Shown: in pieces, positions 6,146-14,000 of the stretch
How the letters are laid out: each line of letters begins with the position of its first letter
Position numbering within the stretch: the stretch's first letter is position 1
Assembly: GCA_018003315.1 (NCBI GenBank)
Contig: JAGNEJ010000039.1
Span: 1-40,974, forward strand
Source of the DNA: Verrucomicrobiales bacterium
GTDB lineage: Bacteria; Verrucomicrobiota; Verrucomicrobiia; Verrucomicrobiales; V1-33
Length of the DNA: 40,974 nucleotides
Direction of reading: 5' to 3'
Program-made: the position numbers and the translations under genes
The notes under the pieces: generated by a model
What the model saw: the letters and a program-made list of their open reading frames with translations, nothing else
Databases searched by the model: none
What the model was told of the DNA's origin: nothing

Positions 6146-6985
6146 ATGCCTGATTCCAGCAGTCCGGTCGGCGTTTTTGACAGTGGCGTGGGCGGCTTGT
6201 CAGTGCTGCAGGAACTGCGCCGTCTGCTGCCATTGGAGAATTTCATCTATGTTGCTGACAGCGGTCAGGTCCCATACGGAAACAAGCCACCGGCATTCAT
6301 TTTGGAACGCAGCCGGACGCTGACCCGGTTCCTGGTGGAATGCGGTTGCAAAGCGGTGGTCATCGCCTGCAATACCGCCACCGCCAGCGCCGCAGCCGCC
6401 TTGCGACGTGAGTTTTCAGACATCCCGGTCATCGGCATGGAACCAGCCGTAAAACCCGCGGTTGCGGCCACCAGGCGAAAAATCATCGGAGTGCTGGCCA
6501 CCGTTGGCACATTGCAAAGCGCCCGGTTTGCAGCCCTGCTGGATCAATTCGCCGCGGAAGTCCAAGTCATCACGCAACCCGCTCCAGGGCTGGTGGAATG
6601 CGTGGAAGCCGGGGATCTGACCTCCGATGCGACGCGATCGCTCGTCAGCAGTTTCGTGTCTCCCCTGGTTGCCCGGGATGTGGATGTGATCGTGCTGGGC
6701 TGCACGCATTACCCCTTTCTGCGCCCGGTGATTCAAGAGTGCGCCGGGCCCGGCGTCGCGCTGATTGATACCGGCGGGGCGGTGGCCAGGCAGGTGAAGC
6801 GACGGCTGGGAGAATTCGACCTGGATCGAAAGGACGGGCAACCGGGCACCGAGAGGTTTTTCACCACGGGTTCGCCGGAGCACACCGCTGCCGCCGTCCG
6901 CATTCTGTGGCCCGCCAGCGTGGAAATCGATTCCCTGACTGAAATCGCGCTCCGGCGCACGGCAACGGCCCCCAAAACATCCTAA
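6146..6985 (+). CDS. murI: Glutamate racemase
   Basis: A 279-residue cytoplasmic enzyme that makes D-glutamate for peptidoglycan. GVFDSGVGGLSV (D12, start of the active site), the first catalytic cysteine in ACNTATA (C75) and the second in VLGCTHYPFL (C186) are all present and correctly spaced, so it should be active. The block VADSGQVPYGNK is also typical. It lies 42 bases after the LTxxQ gene; the gap contains a short inverted repeat (CCGGC 6104 / GCCGG 6117) of doubtful meaning. The peptidoglycan-recycling ligase Mpl is encoded convergently about 1.3 kb downstream, so two steps handling D-Glu-containing murein lie close together. Confidence 0.97.
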   Translation: MPDSSSPVGVFDSGVGGLSVLQELRRLLPLENFIYVADSGQVPYGNKPPAFILERSRTLTRFLVECGCKAVVIACNTATASAAAALRREFSDIPVIGMEPAVKPAVAATRRKIIGVLATVGTLQSARFAALLDQFAAEVQVITQPAPGLVECVEAGDLTSDATRSLVSSFVSPLVARDVDVIVLGCTHYPFLRPVIQECAGPGVALIDTGGAVARQVKRRLGEFDLDRKDGQPGTERFFTTGSPEHTAAAVRILWPASVEIDSLTEIALRRTATAPKTS

Positions 6986-8276: not shown

Positions 8277-9698
8277 TTACCGCCTGACGAGTTCGCTGAT
8301 GGCACGAAGAATCTGCTCGCGGGCGGTGGGAAATCCCGGCGTGAGCGCCAGGAGGAAGATGTCGCCATCTTTGCAGAGTCCGGAAATCTGGGACAGTGCC
8401 TCCGGCAGCGACGCCGGGATGCGGGCGATGACGCCGCGACGTCTCAAATCCCGGCGCAAGCGGTCGTTGTCAAAAGGGCCTGCGGCAGGAATTTTCGGAT
8501 CGAAGGCCGGAAATGCCAGGACCACGGAAGCGCCCGAAAGGGCTTCCGGCAGATACCGCTGGCAAAGCCCGCTGCGACCACCCGTATGGCAGGGCACCAT
8601 GAGGACGACAATTCTCCTGCCAGGATGCCGACTGCGCAGACTGCGGACCAGCGGACCAAGCGCCACTGGGTGGCTGGTTTCATCCCCATAGACGATGGAC
8701 CGCCCCAAAACCGCGAGCACCTCCTGCCGACCGGCAACGCCTGGGAAATCGGTCAGGAACCGGGCAGAGTCAGCGAGGCAGACTCCCGCCGATTCCGCAG
8801 CGCAGGCGGCGAGGGCGGCATTGATGGCGTTCATGCGGCCATGCAAGGGGAGGGAAAATGGAACGCCGTTCAAACGAAACCGGCATCCTGAGTTGCGGTC
8901 AGTGAATGCAGTGATGCGATGGGTGGACAGTCTTGAGAAGCCTGCGGTGGCGACGGAGCAGTTGGCAGGGGGGAGGAGAGCGAGGGCTCCGACATCCTCC
9001 GCATTCACGATCAAGCGCCCATTTTCCGGAAGTTGCCGACACGCATGGTCAAACACCTCCGCATACGACGACTCCGTCGGGTAGATGTCGGGGTGGTCAT
9101 GGGAGACATTGGTGACGACGAGCAGCTCCGGATGATAGCGCCAGAGTTTTGGAAGCGGATCATCCGGACTGCAGGGAAATTCATCGCCTTCCAGCACCGC
9201 AAGCGGACCTCCCCTCAGCCTCAGCAGCGGCCAGTCCGCACTGCGCATCTGACCGCCAATGAGATGCACGGGGGTTTTGCCGGCTCTGCACAAAATCCAG
9301 GCCAGCATGGCCGTGGTGGTCGTCTTTCCCTTGGTTCCTGCCACCACCAGATTCCGCGTTTGGCGCAAAAGATGCGCTTCAAGAAAGGCGGCCGCATTCC
9401 AGATCGGAATGCCTCGGCGCAGCGCATCGGCAAGTTCAGGATTGTCATCCGCGCACTGGCCCCCGGTCACGACGGCATCGATGTTGGAAGAGAGATTTTC
9501 CGGAGACCAGGCTGTAGAAACTCGAATACCGGCAGCTTCCAGCATCCCCGGCATGGGGGGGAACTGTACGGGGTCGGATCCGGCAACATGGACGCCTGCC
9601 TCCTTGAGAGCCAGCGCCAAACCGCCAACCAGCCGTCCGCAAATGCCGGTGAAGTGGATGGATCGGGGCAGTGGATGGGTAAACCTGGGCAAGGTCAT
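8277..9698 (-). CDS. mpl: Mpl-type UDP-N-acetylmuramate:murein tripeptide ligase (Mur ligase family)
   Basis: A 473-residue Mur-ligase. The start IHFTGICGRLVGGLALALKEAGVHVAGSDP matches the Mpl N-terminus and differs from MurC (GIGGxGMSG). The ATP loop is VVAGTKGKTTTTAMLAW, followed by LEGDEFPCSPDDPLPKLW, corresponding to the Mpl GDEYDTAFFD acidic segment, and SHDHPDIYPT. Mpl joins recycled L-Ala-gamma-D-Glu-meso-Dap tripeptide to UDP-MurNAc in the cytoplasm. The ATG at 9698 is preferred because AAGGAA sits nine bases upstream, one of few Shine-Dalgarno sequences in the window; a TTG at 9743 would add 15 unlikely residues. MurC paralogues are the main alternative. It is divergent from the graspetide-like locus. 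Confidence 0.88.
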   Translation of the reverse strand: MTLPRFTHPLPRSIHFTGICGRLVGGLALALKEAGVHVAGSDPVQFPPMPGMLEAAGIRVSTAWSPENLSSNIDAVVTGGQCADDNPELADALRRGIPIWNAAAFLEAHLLRQTRNLVVAGTKGKTTTTAMLAWILCRAGKTPVHLIGGQMRSADWPLLRLRGGPLAVLEGDEFPCSPDDPLPKLWRYHPELLVVTNVSHDHPDIYPTESSYAEVFDHACRQLPENGRLIVNAEDVGALALLPPANCSVATAGFSRLSTHRITAFTDRNSGCRFRLNGVPFSLPLHGRMNAINAALAACAAESAGVCLADSARFLTDFPGVAGRQEVLAVLGRSIVYGDETSHPVALGPLVRSLRSRHPGRRIVVLMVPCHTGGRSGLCQRYLPEALSGASVVLAFPAFDPKIPAAGPFDNDRLRRDLRRRGVIARIPASLPEALSQISGLCKDGDIFLLALTPGFPTAREQILRAISELVRR

Positions 9699-9767
9699 GA
9701 GCGGAGTTCCTTGGTTGCCGCAGCCAGCACGCCATTGCCTCAAAATCCAGACGAATGCGAAGAATAA

Positions 9768-9819: not shown

Positions 9820-9849
9820 CAACAACAGAAAAACCAAACCATCGCCATC

Positions 9850-9942
9850 ATGACACTGCTTGAAGAATTGTGTGCGTCCGCTGAACAGGTTGTCGTTTCC
9901 AACACCGTGCCGACCGGTACGGCCCAGGAAATCGTAGAGTAA
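9850..9942 (+). CDS. Candidate graspetide (omega-ester peptide) precursor, 30 residues
   Basis: ATG at 9850 to TAA at 9940-9942, flanked upstream by a -35 element and palindrome and downstream by a strong terminator 15 bases after the stop, so it looks like an independent, highly transcribed unit. The N-terminal half is leader-like (LLEEL helix, then hydrophobic VVVS). The C-terminal 13 residues, NTVPTGTAQEIVE, contain three Thr (T19, T22, T24) and two Glu (E27, E30), with no Lys or Asp. Graspetide synthetases esterify Thr/Ser hydroxyls to Glu/Asp side chains, and precursors show Thr-rich then acid-rich order, as here. The gene 95 bases downstream is such a synthetase. At 30 codons it is shorter than usual precursors (roughly 40-100). 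It has no Shine-Dalgarno. Alternatives: a regulatory leader peptide, or chance. Confidence 0.55.
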   Translation: MTLLEELCASAEQVVVSNTVPTGTAQEIVE

Positions 9943-9956
9943 GCAACCTGTTTCAG

Positions 9957-9997
9957 AAACAGCCAGTCCTGTCCTTCAGCAGGCTGGCTGTTTTTGC
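9957..9997 (+). terminator. Strong intrinsic terminator / attenuator between peptide gene and ATP-grasp gene
   Basis: AAACAGCCAG (9957-9966) pairs with CTGGCTGTTT (9984-9993); the stem continues through CCTG (9968-9971) with CAGG (9980-9983) after one bulged T at 9967, leaving an eight-base loop. The T-run TTTTTGC follows directly. This is one of the two best terminators in the window. Its place, 15 bases after the peptide stop and about 40 before the enzyme start, would give abundant peptide mRNA with limited read-through into the enzyme. Confidence 0.85.
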
Positions 9998-10037
9998 TTT
10001 TCCGGGAGCGGTGTGAATGGATGGAAAGGACGAGTCA

Positions 10038-11054
10038 ATGATCGTCATTGTCGCCACGGAGGATGACCTGGCAATGCCTTCGGTCGTGCAGGCATTGGAG
10101 CGGCTGGGGCGGAGGGATGTGCTTCTGCTGGATCTGGAAAAGGCGCATGAAAAAATGATCCTGACCAGCCGGGTGGAAAACGGTTGCGTCGATTGGAGCA
10201 TTCAGTCACGGGTGCAGCCGGATCTGGTGGTGACGCCTGAAAATGTCACCGCGGTCTATTGGCGCCGACCCATCAGCTACATCGGATCGCCAGTGCTCGG
10301 CCTGCCAACCACTGCCAATCTGGACCAGATCGAAATTTTCTGGTCGATCCGCTGGCATCTGGAGGCACTTTCCCCGGCGCTGTTCCCCCTGGGACACCCG
10401 TGGGTGTTTGCGCGTGCGGAAAACAAGCACCGTCAGATGGAGGCTGCCCGGAAAGTGGGCTTCACCGTTCCGCAGACCATCCACTCCAACGATCTCGCGG
10501 CCCTGCGTGACTTTATCGCGCGCCAGCAGGAAGTCGCGGTCAAGGCGCTGCGGATGCCTGCGGTGAGTGCGGATGGGGACGTGAAAAGGGCGCGGCACAT
10601 CGCCTGCAAACTCTTCACCGCAGAGTTTCTCGATGCCCGGCTTGCTGCGGTCGAACGCGGGCAGCTTTTCTGCCAGAAGGCGGTGCGGCGCACCCATGAC
10701 CTGCGCATTACCGTTTTGCCCCGGCAGACCATCTGCGCGGCCATTGACACCACCACGCTGGAAGGCAACAAGCTGGACTGGCGCGAGGATTCCCTGCATC
10801 TGGCACACAAAATCCTGCCGGTGGATCCAGTGTTCGATCGGCAACTGCGCGCCTTCCTTGAGGAAATGGAACTGACCGCAGGCTATTTTGACTTCGCCGT
10901 GCCGAACGAAGGGCCGCCGATTTTTTTCGAGTGCAACACCAATGCCCAATGGCACTGGATCGAGGCGGTAACCGGTCATCCGTTTTCCGAGGCCATCGCC
11001 CGGGAACTCGCCGAGTGCGGTCAGGGCATCAGCGAGGCCCGCAGCCGGAGATAG
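10038..11054 (+). CDS. MvdC/MvdD-family ATP-grasp peptide ligase (graspetide synthetase)
   Basis: A 338-residue ATP-grasp ligase. Family landmarks as I know them from MvdD: the N-terminal pre-grasp domain ending VTAVYWRRP (about 71-79); ATP-binding lysine in EVAVKAL (K169); the DxR motif THDLRITVL (D221, R223), involved in core binding in this family; then AAIDTTTLEGNKLDWRE, aligning with MvdD AAINSQQLDGAIYDWRKE; and the Mg-binding FFECNTNAQW (296-305), replacing the usual FLEINPxG. Such enzymes form ester (MvdD-like) or amide bonds between core side chains. ATG at 10038 is chosen because GGAAAGGA lies seven bases upstream; 10017 is possible. No transporter, protease or acetyltransferase follows. 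Its last 34 bases overlap the convergent 11021-14587 gene. Confidence 0.88.
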   Translation: MIVIVATEDDLAMPSVVQALERLGRRDVLLLDLEKAHEKMILTSRVENGCVDWSIQSRVQPDLVVTPENVTAVYWRRPISYIGSPVLGLPTTANLDQIEIFWSIRWHLEALSPALFPLGHPWVFARAENKHRQMEAARKVGFTVPQTIHSNDLAALRDFIARQQEVAVKALRMPAVSADGDVKRARHIACKLFTAEFLDARLAAVERGQLFCQKAVRRTHDLRITVLPRQTICAAIDTTTLEGNKLDWREDSLHLAHKILPVDPVFDRQLRAFLEEMELTAGYFDFAVPNEGPPIFFECNTNAQWHWIEAVTGHPFSEAIARELAECGQGISEARSRR

Positions 11055-14000
11055 CGGAAGTCCGAGGCCAGCGGCACCCGCAAACCAAGGGCAGTGGGAG
11101 AGTTGAGGATGATCTCCACCTCTGGCGGGGAGGAAGCCCACGCAGATGGATCCGCCGCTGCCTCCGGCGTTAGGACCACATCGGGCAGGACCGGCCTGCT
11201 GAAGATGACTTCAAAATGGACGCCGTTGATCCTGACCACGAGCGCAGGGCGTGAAGCACCTTGTCGGGGGTGGGTGTCGAGCGCATATTCCAGCAGGTTC
11301 GATGCACCATCCTCGTCGGGATCGGCATTCCATCCGCTGATGGCGGGATCGCTGCGTTCTGCAGCGGAAAAGTAGGCATTGAAAAAGGGATGGTCGATCG
11401 TGACATAAACCGCAGCGCGATTTGATGTCAGCGCGGTGGAGTCGCTCACTGAATAAACGAGGATGTCACTGGCTGGGGCGCTGCCTCCTCCATGCGTGTA
11501 GGTGATGACGCCTGACGGACTGACGGTGGCGCTGCCGTGCGACGGCGGAGTGACGATCTGAACGGTGCTGGCGGAGAGATTGCCGTCAGGATCGAAATCA
11601 TTTGTTAGGACATGGACGGTGGCGGACGCACCGCGGTTCACGGTGAGGGTGTCGCTGGCGGCAACCGGATGGTCTCCCCCTTCCGCAGGCAGGAAGAACT
11701 GGGTGGCGGGAATGACGCGCTTGGTCCCGGCAGGGGGCGTCCAGGAAAGGACCGCCCAGGCGGAATTGAGTTTGTCGAGCATTTCCAGGTGAAGGCGCGC
11801 GTATTTGCCTCCTGTCAGTTGGATGAGTCCGGAATCTTCCGCAGGTCCCCAGTCGGTGCTCCACCGGGAAATGATCTGCTGCTGGCCGAAGTCGTTAGTG
11901 ACCCAAAGCCGCACGCGGTTGTCCTTGTTGGTGCTGTCCCCGGCGTTGACATGGAACGCATAGGAACCGGTGGTGGGAACGTAGAGGAGCGCGTCCCATT
12001 TGACGGCAAAGTTGTCGGCATTGACCGTGGTACCCGGCGGGGCCAAGGCACCCCAGACGGTTGCGGGAAAATTCACCTCGGCATCCACCCGTGACGTTTT
12101 CAGGGTGGAAAAGACGGTCGCCCCGGAACTGTTCCAGTATTCGGCATTGATCCCGTTGGCATCGGGATAATCCTCGGCCCGCAGGCTGTTGATCCATTCC
12201 TCGATCGTTCTGACGCCGGATGCATCCACCACATTTTTCCCCAGGGGCGGCATCTGATTTGCCCCGGCCAGGTTTGCCCGGAAATGCAGGAGCGATTTCG
12301 CCACGGTGCGCGGCCTGACAATGGCCCCGCTGGTGATGTTGAGCGGTCTGGCCACGCTGGCATTGTTGATGACATTCATTTGATCCGGCGGCGTGTGGAA
12401 GCGCAGGTCGAACGCCGGCTGGACGCTGCCGGGCCGGTGACAGTGGGAACAATTGGCATCCAGATAGGATTTGGCACGCAGTTCCACGGGCTGGGTGAAG
12501 TCGTTTTCGGCACAAGCCCGCGGCAGCGCTGCCGCGGCCGCTTCGCTGATGGGCGTGTTCAGCAAGCCGACGGAACTGAGCGTGTAGAGCTGATTCGCCG
12601 TCCGTCCGGTCGCGGGATAAAAGCAGTCGCCGTTCATCTGGTGCGTTTTCAGACCCAGCGCGATTCCGGCAGCGGTCTGGTGACAGTTGAAGCATTCCGT
12701 CCGCGAGGGGATCGGCCAAATTTGGCTGCGCGTTCCGCCGTTCTGCGTCTGGATGGTGAACGTCCGCGAGCCGCCGGCAAAAAGCAGATCGGCGTCGCTT
12801 TGATCCTCGCGCCACTGGTAGGTGAAGGCATACCAGGTGCCGCCATTGCCGCGGATGAGAAAGCGTGTTTCGATTTTTGCGGTTAGGGATGGCTGAGTTT
12901 CATCGACAGGAAGCTCGAAATGCTTGATCAGCACGGTGCCGTCCGGAAAGCTCCAGTCTCCCGTGGCGGAATAGCCAATCTGCTCCGCCGCAGAATTCGG
13001 CTGCCCGTCGTTGGGGATGATCATCCATCGGCGCTTGGCCGCGCCGTCCGTCCACAGGGGGGAATTCACCGCGTAGGGCAGGACGCCCGGGGCAGTGGCC
13101 AGCGATTGGAGATCGGTAAAAACCCCCGTTTCCGACAGGCGGAGCGGCGGATCGGGCACATTCACCGCGGTGCGGGCCAGCTTGTAAATTTTCCCGTTAG
13201 GGCTGCCATAACCCGCAAGTTTGACCATGCAGGGCTCGCCATTGTGATCGACTCCCCATCCGGCAATGTTGGCGTGGAATCCGCCAGTCGGCATGTCGCA
13301 GAGGAATTCGACCGTGGCCGGAGTGGTGGCGGGATTGAGCGCCCAGACGTGGCGGTATTCGTGGTCGGCAAAGAGCACTTTTCCGGTGAGGGCGCTGCCG
13401 TGCTCCCGTCCGCGGTAAACGGGGCCGCAAATGACGCAGACGCCGGTGGAGCGCAGATAGGAATGGACCGGAGGCATTTCGGTTCCCAGCACGGGATTCG
13501 GTGTCGCCCGCAAACGGAGGGTGCCCTCCATGTATGGCCATTGGTAATTTCCCCCTTTCACAATCCGGTTTACTTCCTCGCGCGATCCCTGGCCCACATC
13601 TCCCTCAAAAATCATGCCGGTGGCTTCATCGTAGGTCATGGTGTGGGGGCTGCGAATGCCGAGGCACCAGTATTCCTCCAATTGACTGCCATCCGGATGC
13701 AGCCAGGGGTTGTCATCGGGTATGCCGTAGTGGGCGGAAAACGACCCTGGCCAGCCCGCCGGGGGCGTTCCACCGGGGCTGGGCTGGCGGCGGATGGGGT
13801 GGCTTCGGGCGGCGTCGCTGTCCACATCGATGCGGAAAACCCCGCCGTGCATTCCCTTGTTGCGAAGCTGCCCGGTCACGTAGGGGTCGTAGTCGCCGCC
13901 TTCATCGCCGATCGCAAAATACAGGAATCCATCATTCCCGAAAAACATCGCGCCGCCGTTGTGCCAGTCGTGCCGCTCGTATTGCTGAAGCAGAATTTGT

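Follow-up and report, generated by a model that had tools for sequence, protein, structure and literature searches.

The closest described systems are the graspetides of the TIGR04187 type, in which an ATP-grasp enzyme of the MvdC/MvdD/TIGR04187 family is encoded beside a short ribosomal precursor, Thr, Ser or Lys donors lie N-terminal to an Asp or Glu acceptor, and multiple precursors per enzyme occur at some loci. Known core motifs include TxKxPSDx[ED][ED] in microviridin and TTxxxxEE in plesiocin. The locus analyzed here lies in a stretch of 40,974 nucleotides from a Verrucomicrobiales bacterium (the whole stretch is called the window below). It shares the features listed for TIGR04187-type graspetides, and it has in common with microviridin and plesiocin the enzyme superfamily and the order of donors before acceptor. 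It differs from TIGR04187-type graspetides in its short precursors, a single conserved acceptor, a [TS]x2[TSK]x4[DE] spacing and an LxxLC leader without Phhx(1,2)h, as well as in an enzyme well under the curated cut-off and in its partners, a Mur ligase and a GT4 glycosyltransferase. An ATP-grasp domain fused to a Mur ligase and devoted to peptide chemistry is found in cyanophycin synthetase, one non-ribosomal polymerase; at this locus, by contrast, the two enzymes are encoded by separate genes, belong to other subfamilies and would act on a ribosomal substrate.

The ATP-grasp gene occupies positions 10038 to 11054 of the plus strand and encodes a protein of 338 amino acids, identified as a TIGR04187/MvdC/MvdD-like graspetide synthetase by profile, PDB sequence match and fold; the listed ORF starts at 10017, and the homologs favour the ATG at 10038. 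It matched the TIGR04187 profile with an E value of 1e-48, MvdD with 3e-29 and MvdC with 2e-25, and its closest PDB sequence was CdnC (8e-20). Since the TIGR04187 score (166 bits) is well under the curated cut-off of 350 bits, the protein falls outside that subfamily as curated and is better regarded as a divergent relative. An AlphaFold model built from a seven-row alignment had a pLDDT of 81, and the first 31 Foldseek rows obtained with it were all graspetide synthetases (MdnC, CdnC, PruB, AMdnB, MdnB, and PsnB), followed by RimK. By profile and modelled fold, the enzyme is a divergent graspetide synthetase.

Among 387 genomes of the order Verrucomicrobiales, seven carry this ATP-grasp subfamily (E about 1e-52 or better): that of the window, a Verrucomicrobiales MAG (L003), and L012, L013, L014, L015, and L019. 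The seven loci span four genera and three families. No further close relatives emerged when the class and two families were searched, and a separate contig scan of the genomes yielded one locus, L003. Homologous short ORFs, 17 in the six other genomes, were found beside the homologous ATP-grasp genes, with up to four copies in tandem. In all seven carriers the precursors lie upstream of the ATP-grasp gene, giving a total of 18 (one each in the window and L003, two in L015, three each in L013 and L019, and four each in L012 and L014). They measure 26 to 42 amino acids, most of them about 30. The precursor alignment (A4) contains 16 rows, two L014 copies that are identical in protein sequence to L012 copies having been omitted. 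In L015, two precursor genes flank a gene in their own orientation (9945-11366) whose 473-residue product has no Pfam match.

The window precursor gene spans positions 9850 to 9942 of the plus strand and encodes 30 residues (MTLLEELCASAEQVVVSNTVPTGTAQEIVE); it is supported by the ORF call, the homolog alignment, a leave-one-clade-out profile and dN/dS. No in-frame ATG, GTG or TTG start lies upstream of its ATG. With a profile trained on the other clades only, the ORF ranked first among the 1123 six-frame segments of the window (E=0.011), and reciprocal profiles, each built without the clade searched, also placed the true ORFs on top (ranks 1-3 in L019, 1-2 in L015, and 1-4 in L012). The L003 ORF scored at noise level with a profile built without the L003 and window sequences, and its kinship to the window precursor rests on a pairwise similarity score of 57, against a shuffle maximum of 49 (n=20,000), and on its place before an ATP-grasp gene whose product is 57% identical. 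A search of the seven carriers, with a model trained on the same precursors, located precursor-like ORFs only in the clusters (E of 7e-9 or better, against E>1 for the next best match). The initial annotation had made its reading depend on coding constraint, and such constraint is present: dN/dS was 0.08, 0.18, and 0.32 for ortholog pairs among the sister genomes L012, L013, and L014, and about 0.21 between the window and L003, where dS is saturated. As judged from these comparisons, the short ORF of the window is a real gene under purifying selection.

Translation of 9850-9942 places Thr at positions 19 (9904-9906), 22 (9913-9915), and 24 (9919-9921) and Glu at positions 27 (9928-9930) and 30 (9937-9939), ahead of the stop codon (9940-9942), just as the initial annotation had it. 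That annotation had proposed a core of the form T-x-x-T-x-T-x-x-E-x-x-E, and the alignment of homologous short ORFs, the check it had put forward, retains three of its five residues. The conserved core is [T/S]-x2-[T/S/K]-x4-[D/E], that is T19, T22, and E27 in the window (positions 0, +3, and +8 of the presumed core NTVPTGTAQEIVE, which with its stop codon covers 9901-9942), position 0 being whichever Thr or Ser comes first in the NTV/NTI/NSV/ETV/DTV/PTI block. Neither T24 nor E30 is matched by a conserved residue in the homologs, so that by the refuting condition of the initial annotation these two positions fail and the other three stand. All aligned precursors have Thr or Ser at 0 and Thr, Ser or Lys at +3; the Lys is found in an L015 precursor, and this exchange agrees with the donor set given for graspetides (PMC13097080). 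The acid at +8 is present in all precursors except two: one L019 copy carries it at +7, and the L003 precursor (MSILESLCASVEIQVNTVPTTIVANP, 2410-2490) has Asn at +8, with no acid downstream of the conserved NTVPT. A base error behind this Asn is possible, because the coverage of the L003 contig is only about 2.65x. In seven representative cores, which are incompletely independent as the three L019 copies are paralogs, an acid stands at +7 in one and at +8 in five, the latter a frequency that within-core shuffles reach in 0.07% of cases.

Thr donors preceding a Glu acceptor, the order typical of graspetides, are thus upheld by the aligned homologs together with the adjacent graspetide synthetase, and the distinctness of the core from the described patterns holds as well: the microviridin motif is absent from the window and from all aligned precursors, and the plesiocin motif from all aligned precursors. 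Collectively, the locus combines an ATP-grasp enzyme of the synthetase family, an adjacent constrained precursor in seven of seven genomes, and Ser/Thr/Lys donors before Asp/Glu, with L003 as the exception. We infer that the product of the ORF is a very short graspetide precursor of ribosomal origin in which the adjacent ATP-grasp enzyme would close one ring between E27 and either T22 or T19, a reading to which we assign a probability of about 0.82.

The initial annotation had allowed for two nested or parallel ester rings, drawing on T19, T22, and T24 with both E27 and E30. All five residues do occur in the window peptide, and characterized graspetide synthetases usually install more than one linkage (PMC13097080). 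Nevertheless, T24 and E30 are unconserved, and the tail beyond the +8 acid is free to vary among tandem copies (SGLG, GGIE, STLQ, NGDV), which makes two rings an improbable outcome. There is one conserved acceptor and therefore one ring is predicted, the likelier number on the aligned sequences. The initial annotation was right about the class and the order of the residues, and probably wrong about the number of rings and about two of the five residues.

The putative leader comprises positions 9850 to 9900 of the plus strand, as judged from alignment A4. Three columns, M1, L4, and C8, are invariant over the 16 aligned precursors, C8 lying within an LC[AGSV] motif. We know of no role in graspetides for this invariant leader Cys (9871-9873 in the window). 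The window leader contains no Pro and does not match Phhx(1,2)h, a motif present in about half of graspetide precursors and not obligatory for members (PMC8939145). In the mechanism that we propose, the ATP-grasp enzyme would bind the N-terminal hydrophobic LxxLC region of the precursor and phosphorylate the side-chain carboxylate of E27, whereupon the hydroxyl of T22 or T19 would attack the activated E27 to give a single, presumably ester, ring; for the relative whose +3 residue is Lys, a lactam would be expected.

The same enzyme could instead ligate the carboxylates of the peptide to an amino acid or a sugar with no cyclisation, the Mur ligase then acting on the product. Conjugation chemistry of this kind is suggested by the Mur ligase and GT4 partners, the C-terminal carboxylate as acceptor would explain the lack of a +8 acid in L003, and in fold the next neighbours are RimK-like ligases. 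We consider such a reaction unlikely, however, since the best sequence and fold matches are exclusively graspetide synthetases, and since the donors at 0 and +3 are conserved, including their T/S/K exchange, although an acceptor-only reaction has no need of them.

A gene for an accessory Mpl-type Mur ligase (8277-9743, minus strand, with a likely start at the ATG at about 9698) is divergent from the window precursor. All seven loci have a Mur ligase gene at most a few kb from the precursor/ATP-grasp pair, divergent in the window and L019 and convergent in L003 and L012-L015, and in five of them (L012-L015 and L019) it is followed by a GT4 glycosyltransferase gene, which was not found beside the Mur ligase in the window. 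No gene for a protease or an exporter was recognised near the precursor/ATP-grasp pair of the window. A glutamate racemase (MurI) gene is located at 6146-6985, separated by about 1.3 kb from the gene of the accessory Mur ligase; it was not seen in the stretches read from the relatives, and its presence was treated as coincidence.

The accessory enzyme belongs with the MurC/Mpl ligases, and its profile found its best PDB match in the Psychrobacter Mpl 3HN7. Like this three-domain ligase (PMC3060825), it keeps the glycine-rich UDP-MurNAc-binding loop (GICG), GSD, PPM, the P-loop (GTKGKTTTT), and EGDE with the catalytic Glu. Unlike Mpl, it has neither the (S/T)AFFDKRSK loop specific to that enzyme nor the peptide-site residues of EPRSNT and DFxHHP, which have been named among those likely to recognise substrates (PMC3060825). 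Relative to the genome's housekeeping Mpl, AFFDKRSK, EPRSNT, and DFxHHP are all replaced, as they are in the other accessory paralogs, the replacements being PRxTGGRxG and DExxxHP-type motifs. Its score (184.6 bits) compares with an mpl cut-off of 388.7. A housekeeping identity was rejected, since separate MurC (C127) and Mpl (C13) genes are present elsewhere in the genome, and the accessory paralogs group apart from housekeeping Mpl with a support of 97/96. These replacements suggest that the substrate which the accessory ligase joins to UDP-MurNAc, or to an acceptor related to it, may be some peptide different from the cell-wall tripeptide, and the graspetide would be the obvious candidate.

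A single inherited Mur-ligase clade for all clusters was rejected (AU p=3e-4), the window-type ligases and those of the L012/L015/L019 type being placed on different branches. This result bears on whether the Mur ligase is a bystander, one of the common Mpl paralogs located there by chance. In favour of chance, the cluster-linked ligases do not form one clade, and accessory Mpl paralogs also occur with no ATP-grasp gene in the stretch read (L053, L055, and L056). Chance is nonetheless a poor explanation for a Mur ligase within a few kb at all seven loci in four genera and three families, the expectation being roughly 0.008 per genome under random placement (four Mur-like genes, 5 Mb, 5-kb reach). 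In addition, the gene orders differ, so that synteny was not simply inherited, and five distant ATP-grasp loci outside the subfamily, in contexts of 10-18 kb, have neither Mur ligase nor GT4. Because the adjacency recurs with different branches and gene orders, function is favoured over inherited synteny, and the Mur ligase is probably a second enzyme of the graspetide pathway.

No precursor motif was found beside the accessory Mpl loci that lack an ATP-grasp gene (L052-L056), and GT4 genes stand beside the paralogs of L053 and L055. L053 belongs to the window's own genome (G000, contig C145, 3184-8224), where a second accessory Mpl paralog has as neighbours two GT4 genes and a third gene of transferase-like type, the stretch read containing no ATP-grasp gene. 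As a tentative and rather doubtful extension, the free amino end of the processed graspetide might be coupled by the accessory Mpl-type ligase to UDP-MurNAc or another acidic nucleotide sugar of that kind, the conjugate then being transferred by GT4 at the five loci that have it.

Neither Mur ligases nor glycosyltransferases are among the frequent partners in Table 1 of the 2022 survey of 174 families (PMC8939145), and the co-occurrence text of the 2026 survey (PMC13097080) does not list Mur ligase or GT4 as partners. The literature searched, main texts of freely available papers, contained no link between graspetides and Mur ligases, and a query combining ATP-grasp, Mur ligase and precursor peptide returned no paper. 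Provisionally, then, the seven loci appear to represent a new graspetide family with very short precursors and a new partner enzyme.

Upstream of the window precursor, an AAACCAA element (9831-9837, plus strand) lies 13-19 nucleotides before the ATG. The same element was found within about 35 nucleotides 5' of all five precursor ATGs in the window, L003 (2410), and L019 (1389, 1516, and 2040), and the whole window holds only four copies, both strands counted. Between the precursor and the ATP-grasp gene, positions 9954 to 9996 of the plus strand can form a hairpin ending in a U-rich tract (-28 kcal/mol, z -5.0), found by folding although a simple terminator scan gave no match there. Hairpins at the equivalent position were found in L003 (z -3.0) and L019 (z -4.4), and another follows a further L019 precursor (z -3.8). 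Such a terminator- or attenuator-like hairpin would permit precursor transcripts to exceed enzyme transcripts. The arrangement of a short ORF, a stable hairpin with a U tract and then the enzyme gene also recalls transcription attenuation, with the short ORF as a leader peptide regulating the ATP-grasp gene rather than a substrate, an idea with very little to recommend it given that conservation lies in the amino-acid sequence across families and not in a codon run, that three genomes hold three to four tandem copies each, that an L019 precursor with its own hairpin sits upstream of two further copies, and that this class of ATP-grasp requires a peptide substrate.

If the reading of the ORF as a one-ring graspetide precursor is right, this family has precursors of about 30 residues, which are often missed by gene finders, and would offer a simple one-ring substrate for enzyme study. 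The recurrent Mur ligase and GT4 would then point to a route from a ribosomal peptide to sugar chemistry of the cell-wall type and, were the conjugation true, a ribosomal ring peptide would be incorporated into a muramyl glycoconjugate. The link to the Mur ligase is the part that most deserves testing and, if it is right, the accessory Mpl paralogs of the Verrucomicrobiales would acquire a testable peptide substrate.
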